Shown one piece after another: positions 20,674-22,331 of a DNA stretch of 64,000 bases; within the stretch, counting starts at the first letter, position 1; each line of letters begins with the position of its first letter. The notes under the pieces were generated by a model. That model saw only the letters and a program-made list of their open reading frames with translations. It was not told the DNA's origin and did not search any database. The DNA comes from Paramecium tetraurelia (lineage: Eukaryota; Ciliophora; Oligohymenophorea; Peniculida; Parameciidae), in contig NW_001798977.1 in the NCBI RefSeq assembly GCF_000165425.1, positions 1,216 to 65,215 of the forward strand, written 5' to 3'. A program made the position numbers and the translations under genes.

Positions 20674-20705
20674 ATCATTTTCATTACTTAAATGAAAAAG
20701 TTCAT
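20674..20705 (-). promoter_or_regulatory. Candidate SECIS element in the thioredoxin reductase 3' UTR
   Basis: On the minus (sense) strand the segment begins ATGA. It then has a stem arm TTTTCATT, a loop starting with TAA, the complementary arm AATGAAAA, and ends TGAT. It is flanked by a weaker A/G-U stem (AGAAGA with TTTTTT). The ATGA / loop AA / GA arrangement and the roughly 12-nt spacing to the AA match the eukaryotic SECIS consensus. It lies about 92 nt downstream of the in-frame TGA, beyond the usual minimum distance. The stem has one mismatch, so this is a candidate. Confidence 0.5.
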
Positions 20706-20763
20706 TCTTCTAATCAGTAAATCAAAACACCTCTGACAGAGTTTAGGTTATGTATTTATTTAA

Positions 20764-20787
20764 CCCTAGCTCTCTTTCAAGCTAGGG
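20764..20787 (-). other. Perfect stem-loop just after the thioredoxin reductase stop
   Basis: CCCTAGCT and AGCTAGGG pair as an 8-bp stem around an 8-nt loop, three bases after the final TGA. It lacks the SECIS quartet and is too close to the Sec codon to be the SECIS itself. It could assist recoding or 3'-end formation. Confidence 0.45.
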
Positions 20788-20790
20788 ATC

Positions 20791-22331
20791 TCAACCTCAG
20801 CAACCCTCTTTTTATGGATTATCAATTCCTTTCACTGCAGTAAGAGTTAAAATTTCCTAAAATTAGTAGCTATTTGTACTTCAGAACAAGTAGGGTGAAT
20901 GCCGATGGTTGCATCGAATTGTTCTTTGGTGGCTCCAAGTTTTATAGCTACTGCATAACCCTATACAACCTCACCAGCATTAGGTCCCAAGTAATGCAGA
21001 CCAATAACTCTTCTTGTTGAGACCATAACAATCAATTTAATCATGCAAGCTTAGGCGTAATGAGATTCCAAAAGATTCCACTCTAGAGGTTTAAAAATGG
21101 AATGATAAATAATAATTTCATTTTGAGTGAATTTATTAATTGCCTCTTCTTCTGAATAGCCTATACAACCATATTCAAGTGGAGTGAATACAGTTGTTGG
21201 AATAAATTGATAACACATCATTTTCTTCTATCCACCAAATAAACGATTAGCCAATAATTATCCACATTTGATGGCAGTGGGTGTGAGTTCTGGTCTACCC
21301 TCAACACAATCCCCAATGGCATAGATATTTGCTACAGATGTCCTATCATCAATAGTACAAATAATCTTTCCATTTTTATTGGTTTTAACACCTACTCGCT
21401 CTAGATTCAACTTACTAGTATCACTTTTTCTACCAGTGGCAATAAGCACAGTGTCAAAAGTGTCACTATGCTGAACTCCTTTTTATTTCCATGTTACTAA
21501 TCTTCTATTATGTTCAATCACTTCAATATTGATGGGAATGGCCTCCTTTATAAACTTAATCCCACTCTCCACCATGTAATCTTCGATCTTACCAGCGATT
21601 TCTTAATCAAATCCTCTCAGCAGTATACTTCTAACCATAATAGAACTATCACAGCCCAAGCCATTTAAAAAGCCTCCGCATTCAAGTGCCACATAGGAAG
21701 CTCCAACAACAAGAGTTTTGCCTGGATTATTAGGTAACCAAAACAAATCATCAGAAGTAATTACTTTTTTTTCTATTTCAGGAATGTCTTCTGGGTAACT
21801 AGGTCTTCCACCCACTGCAATCAATATGAATTTTGATTTTACAAACTCGACTCCTCCGTCCTTGTCAATCAACTACATAGTCATAATATAATAATATACT
21901 TTCACAATATTGGATTTTTCTAATTCTGCCAATTTGTTGTAATATTTCACTTCCTTGTTGTTCAATTGGTTTTTATACTGAAAATTCAACTTTTTGATAT
22001 GACTTCGCACATTCTCTGTCATTCTATTCCAATCATGCTTCCCTTTTATGTCAGCATTAATCCATCTAAATCAATATTCATATTCTTACCCTGCTTCTAC
22101 TTGATCTTTTCTAAGTTCACCAGCCAAGGCTGCAAAATGCATTAATTTCTTCGGAATGCATCCCACATTCACACAAGTACCTCCTAAACCCCATTTAGTT
22201 CCTAGAGGAGATGGCTTAACAAAATCAGCTAAACCAACTTTGGCTCCTTGAGATGCAGCTTATTTAGCAGCAGCCAACCCTCCTGAACCTCCTCCAATGA
22301 CGAAGAAATCAAATTCTTAAGTAATTTACAT
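20791..22331 (-). CDS. Thioredoxin reductase, predicted selenoprotein ending Gly-Cys-Sec-Gly
   Basis: Three introns are removed (GTAAGAATATG..TTTAG near 22090, a 27-nt one near 21890, and a 23-nt one near 20869). The protein has about 490 residues: FAD-binding [11 protein letters not shown]; redox motif [23 protein letters not shown]-binding [11 protein letters not shown]; second FAD motif [17 protein letters not shown]; and dimer-interface GIHPTCSE with the catalytic His. The C-terminus reads ..KEGC-TGA-G-TGA, the GCUG tail of high-Mr thioredoxin reductases. Reading the first TGA (20797-20799) as selenocysteine gives the expected end at 20791. Without recoding the protein stops right after Cys. 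Role: NADPH-dependent reduction of thioredoxin in the cytosol. Confidence 0.85.

Follow-up and report, generated by a model that had tools for sequence, protein, structure and literature searches.

A probable selenocysteine-containing thioredoxin reductase gene of Paramecium tetraurelia, with UGA as selenocysteine and as stop two codons apart

RESULTS

The locus encodes a thioredoxin reductase whose frame ends in two UGA codons

The window, i.e., the whole stretch of 64,000 nucleotides analyzed here (C24:1216-65215), is AT-rich and belongs to an assembly of 69,072,372 bases in 231 contigs, in which TAA and TAG are read as Gln (code 6). On its minus strand lies a thioredoxin reductase (TrxR) gene with the following features.

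20791..22331, minus: TrxR coding sequence, 4 exons, 488 residues, predicted Sec487 (UGA) in the tail G-C-U-G
22158..22175, minus: motif CVNVGC, aligned with 1zdl
22066..22089, minus: intron 1, 24 nt, GT...AG
21873..21899, minus: intron 2, 27 nt, GT...AG
20857..20879, minus: intron 3, 23 nt, GT...AG
20797..20799, minus: UGA probably read as selenocysteine (Sec), opposite letter 3 of the terminal GCCG in 1zdl_A
20791..20793, minus: UGA probably read as stop

The frame opens at the minus-strand ATG at 22331 and is unbroken under code 6 after removal of the three introns, whose lengths of 23 to 27 nt are typical of Paramecium. Excision of intron 1 drops an in-frame TGA and restores homology. Intron 3 has a counterpart at the same place in the paralogues on contigs C200 and C14, and its retention would put the tail out of frame; the spliced frame given in the initial annotation is therefore right. 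That annotation had the frame end in KEGC-TGA-G-TGA, and this was borne out: the spliced sequence ends GIDNPQKEGC-TGA-GGT-TGA, with KEGC-TGA-GGT-TGA at 20811-20791 (minus), the Sec TGA at 20799-20797, and the stop TGA at 20793-20791.

The identity of the enzyme, proposed earlier as a TrxR with a GCUG-type tail, was confirmed by two matches. First, residues 5-488 matched PDB chain 1zdl_A (Thioredoxin reductase 2, mitochondrial) with 547 bits; this chain ends GCCG. Second, TIGR01438 scored 625.7 bits over residues 6-488, which passes the threshold for the high-Mr TrxR family (475.85). CVNVGC, which we take to be the N-terminal redox motif of high-Mr TrxR, and the HPTCSEE region, presumably also a high-Mr TrxR motif, are both intact. 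The C-terminal GC(U/C)G redox tail appears as GC-UGA-G-UGA, in which the first UGA would be Sec. A tblastn search of prokaryote contigs found no relatives, and viral contigs gave a single 23-residue match, which was left unused. ARAGORN found no tRNA in the 64-kb window.

Other genes with in-frame UGA codons

A search of the genome with the C24 protein returned 24 stretches, its own locus included. Three further TrxR genes carry a penultimate UGA: those on C200 and C14 end GC-UGA-G-UGA, and that on C56 ends GC-UGA-GCU-UGA, i.e., GCUA. Among these paralogues of one genome, two of which (C200 and C14) are close copies with 96% amino acid identity, the C24 protein was 71% identical to C200, 71% to C14, and 47% to C56. 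Four-fold sites agreed at 45/132 between C24 and C200 and 46/132 between C24 and C14, compared to 132/184 between C200 and C14. Because agreement is so low, the silent sites of C24 must be near saturation with respect to both copies. The last intron of C200, whose boundary was placed by hand, ends in AAG, compared to TAG in the other TrxR genes.

The tail pattern GGNTGYTGAGSNTGA had eight matches in the genome (one for the reversed control), four of which were the TrxR tails. The other matches, on C39, C67, C165, and C198, sit in unrelated frames and were dropped, and genome-wide this pattern revealed no GC-UGA-G/A-UGA tail beyond the four TrxR genes. Tails on C221, C215, and C187 read GIHPSAAE or GIHPSVAEE, without GCUG, and we assume from this motif that they are glutathione-reductase-like; the TrxR-like stretches on C192, C134, C223, and C208 were left out of this tail reading. 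Two side observations concern this family. The divergent fourth TrxR end (C56:231421-231435), with GCUA in place of GCUG, has its own SECIS 57 nt past the stop. In the window itself, pieces of a broken glutathione-reductase-like gene lie about 3 kb apart on the plus strand (26450-26800 and 29963-30290) in shifting frames and look like a pseudogene.

In-frame UGA codons were also found in the Rdx family, where two of eight stretches in the genome contain TGA and both fetched pieces read as selenoproteins. The piece on C195 reads YCGG-UGA-GYKPQY, and its best PDB match was Selenoprotein W (E 1.4e-7). The piece on C224 reads YCTS-UGA-SYKESY and is taken to be SelT-like from its motif and length. 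SECIS cores were seen in the 3' flanks of both the SelW (CGG-UGA-GYK) and the SelT-like (CTS-UGA-SYK) gene. For GPx, nine matched stretches fell into six loci. In our reading of the frames, Cys occupies the active site in C3, C156, C157, and C177, and neither Cys nor UGA was found at the active site in C45 and C212. The active site CSC seen here is as given for P. tetraurelia in the available part of PMC7409322.

A SECIS-like element lies downstream of the TrxR gene

The 3' flank contains the following elements, with coordinates counted from the RNAfold fold.

20624..20707, minus: SECIS region
20707-20698/20633-20624, minus: outer helix P1
20697-20679, minus: lateral hairpin P2
20678-20675 (AUGA) and 20642-20640 (UGA), minus: strands of the SECIS quartet
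20673-20663/20653-20643, minus: helix II, 11 bp, with AAA in the apical loop 12 nt after AUGA

The region thus holds the eukaryotic SECIS features, i.e., the AUGA/UGA quartet, helix II, and apical A's. A SECIS-like hairpin had been placed about 92 nt downstream; in the fold, the lateral 5' hairpin starts 93 nt after the stop, in line with this figure, and AUGA 112 nt after it. The expectation of a stable fold also held. The 201 nt from 20800 to 20600 folded with z = -7.26, and none of 200 shuffles was equally stable, while the 96-nt piece 20712-20617 alone gave z = -3.06 with 1/200 shuffles equally stable. Measured from the Sec UGA, AUGA lies at 118 nt in C24, 132 nt in C200, 132 nt in C14, and 63 nt in C56.

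A mechanical SECIS rule that counts pairs directly, with thresholds picked after the elements had been seen, gave three matches in the 64-kb window when both strands were scanned. The best paired was the TrxR element (11/11 positions), and the others had 9. On the sense strand of the five other UGA-gene loci, the rule gave exactly one match each, at the expected place. A SECIS-like core with 9 to 11 of 11 positions paired is therefore present in all six UGA genes (C24, C200, C14, C56, SelW, and SelT). An earlier SECIS scan missed C200, probably since RNAfold pairs the C200 loop otherwise. Rfam, searched with no positive control, gave no SECIS match in the window at the gathering score and none in 20580-20800 or the five sister loci at E values up to 10.

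The four TrxR regions share a further layout. In unconstrained RNAfold folds, all four form the same three-way junction, in which the outer helix runs unbroken into the lateral 5' hairpin and is followed by AUGA, helix II, and UGA. The outer helix has 10, 11, 11, and 13 bp and the lateral hairpin 7, 8, 9, and 9 bp, and each region was more stable than all 300 of its shuffles (z = -4.51, -3.35, -6.71, and -3.81). When helix II was fixed and the flanks were shuffled, the layout, defined as both helices of at least 7 bp with no linker, arose in 28, 28, 26, and 22 of 3,000 trials, about 1% each; it had been spotted in C24 and C200 before this test, and C200 and C14 do not count as independent cases. 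By comparison, the SelW SECIS adopts a two-helix fold without a lateral hairpin, and the SelT core is absent from its minimum-energy fold. The predicted extra 5' hairpin, and with it the three-way junction of TrxR SECIS regions, looks like a feature not previously described.

A GC-rich hairpin follows the stop codon in three of the four TrxR genes

Two features lie between the coding sequence and the SECIS region.

20764..20787, minus: GC-rich hairpin resembling an SRE, CCCUAGCUU/GAGCUAGGG, starting 9 nt past the Sec UGA (3 nt past the stop)
20722..20790, minus: in-frame open stretch of 22 codons ending EVF-UGA, a weak candidate for a read-through tail

The initial annotation was correct in its SECIS hairpin and missed this more stable one at 20787-20764. 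C200 has an 11-bp post-stop stem with CCCCUAGCC/GGCUAGGGG, and the stem of C14 is identical save for one A-U that became G-U. The distance from the Sec UGA to the start of the stem is 9 nt in C24 and 6 nt in both C200 and C14. MAFFT left the 3' arm of the C24 hairpin unaligned with C200 and C14, and the stems were therefore compared by hand. In this hand count, one pair is changed on both sides (U-A in C24 versus C-G in C200/C14), and the loops differ. The hairpin has been kept between C24 and C200/C14 despite agreement at just 45/132 and 46/132 four-fold sites.

The 40 nt past the stop had folding energies of -15.1 (C24), -22.5 (C200), and -21.9 kcal/mol (C14), compared to a lowest value of -12.9 kcal/mol among 824 other ORF ends, a mix of true gene ends, chance frames, and near-copies. 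The pattern CCTAGCN{4,12}GCTAGG occurred at two places in the 69-Mb genome, the C24 and C200 hairpins, and its reversed control at none. No post-stop hairpin was found in C56, the fourth TrxR (-0.3 kcal/mol), and SelW (-1.5 kcal/mol) and SelT (0.0 kcal/mol) likewise have none past their Sec UGA. The hairpin is therefore not needed for Sec insertion in general.

A stable, conserved stem-loop a few nucleotides past the Sec UGA is one hallmark of an SRE, the other being that it raises Sec insertion at that UGA, and such a structure is present in three of the four TrxR genes. As judged from the primary sequence and its predicted folding, a GC-rich hairpin 6 to 9 nt past the Sec UGA in these genes looks new, and the hairpin at 20787-20764 may favor Sec at the first UGA as a candidate Sec redefinition element. 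It is possible, though we would not bet on it, that the hairpin is instead another 3' UTR element, acting in mRNA stability, localization, or stress control, or an aid to termination at the second UGA. Its restriction to three TrxR genes and absence from C56, SelW, and SelT would fit such a role, as would the conservation between C24 and C200 of the letters of the stem core, beyond mere pairing, as for a protein-binding site. Its position argues the other way: the starts at 9, 6, and 6 nt resemble that of the SelN SRE, 6 nt past its UGA, and SL1 of human SelS, in which Sec is likewise penultimate, begins 3 nt inside the 3' UTR (both in the available part of PMC3628699).

The open frame beyond the stop raises another alternative, that the second UGA is partly read through to give a tail of 22 to 23 residues ending EVF. 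Silent third-position differences between C24 and C200 are seen among the post-stop codons (20722-20790 in the window). The open tails span 22 (C24), 23 (C200), and 23 (C14) codons, and all three end EVF-UGA. Over 42 nt, C24 and C200 share the residue in 9/14 codons (stop included) in frame, compared to 4/13 and 5/13 in the other frames, and column shuffles reach 9/14 in about 1%; however, the 42 nt were chosen and the test is post hoc. Differences by codon position were 6/2/7, with no clear third-position excess, the tails of C200 and C14 differ by five residue changes against one silent change, and C56 has no in-frame UGA in 140 codons past its stop. Taken together, we consider read-through highly unlikely and prefer termination at the second UGA.

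The genome contains genes of the Sec machinery

One locus encodes a tRNA-Sec with anticodon UCA (TCA), scoring 64.3 bits against a gathering cut-off of 47. It was the one match above the cut-off among 16 genome-wide, and ARAGORN, applied to eight of these, called one tRNA-Sec and seven tRNA-Ser. SepSecS was matched with 362.2 bits. eEFSec domain III scored above its cut-off at two loci, C55 and C34; one eEFSec piece matched 5izk (Selenocysteine-specific elongation factor) with 242.6 bits, compared to 93.3 for the best EF-Tu. For SelD, one locus gave two exon stretches, scoring 104.9 and 89.1 bits, both under the cut-off of 125. The locus reads ELKGCGCKVP, and since it has GCGCK, the residue is Cys, not Sec. 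In this selD locus (C162), unreadable bases form a run flanked on either side by a repeated exon piece, which may reflect misassembly or masking. Matches to PF08433 (named KTI12) on C210 and C138 do not separate PSTK from KTI12.

SBP2 was not found among the 25 L7Ae matches read of 30 in the genome. Read by eye and judged by their motifs, these were L7a, L30, S12, NHP2, or SNU13 types or decayed copies. Decayed-looking copies of L7a-like and SNU13-like genes, with frame breaks, were a separate observation. An approximate SBP2 domain used as the query gave no match, a result that carries no weight of its own. For comparison, the SBP2-like protein of Tetrahymena is reported to be about 22 to 25% identical to known SBP2 (PMC7409322, available part). 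Of the Sec factors for which a genome search had been suggested, tRNA-Sec and EFSec were thus recovered and SBP2 was not; absence of the first two, which had been named as the result that would speak against Sec, is not the case.

The failure to find SBP2 among the 25 of 30 L7Ae matches would suit a further alternative, namely, that the first UGA is a real stop, the product is a truncated TrxR ending ..KEGC, and the final codons and the SECIS are vestiges. We regard this as most improbable. In C200, C14, and C56 (71, 71, and 47% identical to C24), the two UGAs with a single codon between them are retained, SECIS-like cores occur in 6/6 UGA genes, and Sec machinery genes are present in the genome.

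DISCUSSION

Taken as a whole, the locus is very probably an intact gene for a Sec-containing high-Mr TrxR, in which the first UGA is Sec and the UGA two codons on is the stop. Sec insertion itself is deduced here from the DNA. The enzyme identity, the four penultimate UGAs, the SECIS-like element, tRNA-Sec(UCA), eEFSec, SepSecS, and SelD all agree with it and support it. Speaking against it are SBP2, not found among the 25 of 30 L7Ae matches read, the lack of any SECIS match from Rfam, and the SelT core, which is missing from the minimum-energy fold. The initial claim that UGA is both Sec and the sole stop, two codons apart, accordingly gains support from the four TrxR tails, the SECIS-like element, and the machinery genes.

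A mechanism can be proposed in four steps. First, eEFSec would deliver Sec-tRNA(UCA) to the UGA at 20799, aided by the 3' SECIS, giving the GCUG tail; there, Sec-tRNA with eEFSec would compete with eRF1 under the influence of the SECIS. Second, while the first UGA occupies the A site, the hairpin would lie near the ribosomal mRNA entry and disfavor termination. Third, 6 nt on, the hairpin would be drawn into the channel and unwound, leaving the second UGA to eRF1, which would end the chain. Because the hairpin would be opened at or inside the entry channel at the second UGA, it could single out the first UGA. The second and third steps assume the general geometry of the ribosome. Fourth, the finished tail would take electrons from the FAD/CVNVGC center and reduce thioredoxin. 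In known high-Mr TrxRs, the GCUG tail draws electrons from the FAD/redox-motif center and reduces thioredoxin.

More tentatively, the TrxR mRNAs of this ciliate lineage might carry a purpose-built two-part device, a position-sensing hairpin that occupies the ribosomal entry solely during reading of the first UGA plus a TrxR-specific SECIS on a coaxial three-way junction, that separates UGAs six nucleotides apart. If true, a local position-sensing signal would solve the problem of a sole stop codon that is also the Sec codon. Where UGA is the sole terminator, each Sec UGA competes with the cell's only stop signal. Here, four genes would have the two meanings at a distance of two codons, and their candidate cis-signals vary from gene to gene; a tractable ciliate thus offers a concrete test of the ribosomal choice of Sec or stop.

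The novelty that the initial annotation implied for a Sec TrxR in a UGA-only-stop code does not stand. Three TrxRs, two GPx, and SPS2 with putative SECIS were listed for Tetrahymena thermophila in 2008, the TrxRs being annotated as putative selenoproteins (PMC2612030), and the headline is therefore not new. A literature search with most subscription journals outside its scope found nothing on Paramecium TrxR selenoproteins, and neither an SRE-like hairpin in TrxR nor a three-way-junction SECIS. What looks new is thus confined to two RNA features, the post-stop hairpin and the three-way-junction SECIS.

One of the closest known systems is that of Tetrahymena, whose putative Sec-TrxRs (TTHERM_00486500, TTHERM_00823430, and TTHERM_00047660) share with C24 the enzyme family, the UGA-only-stop code, and a putative 3' UTR SECIS, as far as the available part of PMC2612030 goes. 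The SECIS printed there for TTHERM_00486500 (Table 2) is predicted to form a hairpin of 10 bp that lies 4 nt 5' of AUGA, and the lateral hairpin may therefore predate Paramecium; however, unlike C24, the printed piece has no enclosing outer helix. The other five of the six SECIS printed there have a shorter hairpin or none 5' of AUGA. The animal-type TrxR1/TrxR2 (PDB 1zdl, 1h6v, and 2zz0) are homologous to C24 from residue 5 to the tail, but in the ciliate code of C24, Sec and termination necessarily fall to one codon. Three meanings attach to UGA in Condylostoma and Parduczia, where TrxR illustrates Sec; as in C24, UGA as Sec stands beside UGA as stop, but UGA there is also Trp, unlike here (PMC4967479, available part). 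For the hairpin, the counterparts are SL1 of SelS and the SRE of SelN, which, as in C24, place a stem-loop a few nucleotides past the Sec UGA (PMC3628699 and PMC8704476, parts available). SelS further resembles C24 in its penultimate Sec and a stem 3 nt into the 3' UTR, and its SL1 promotes Sec insertion near the UGA (PMC3628699, same part). SelS and SelN are other gene families, and SL1 of SelS was examined with reporters (PMC3628699), the predicted hairpin of C24 by its sequence.
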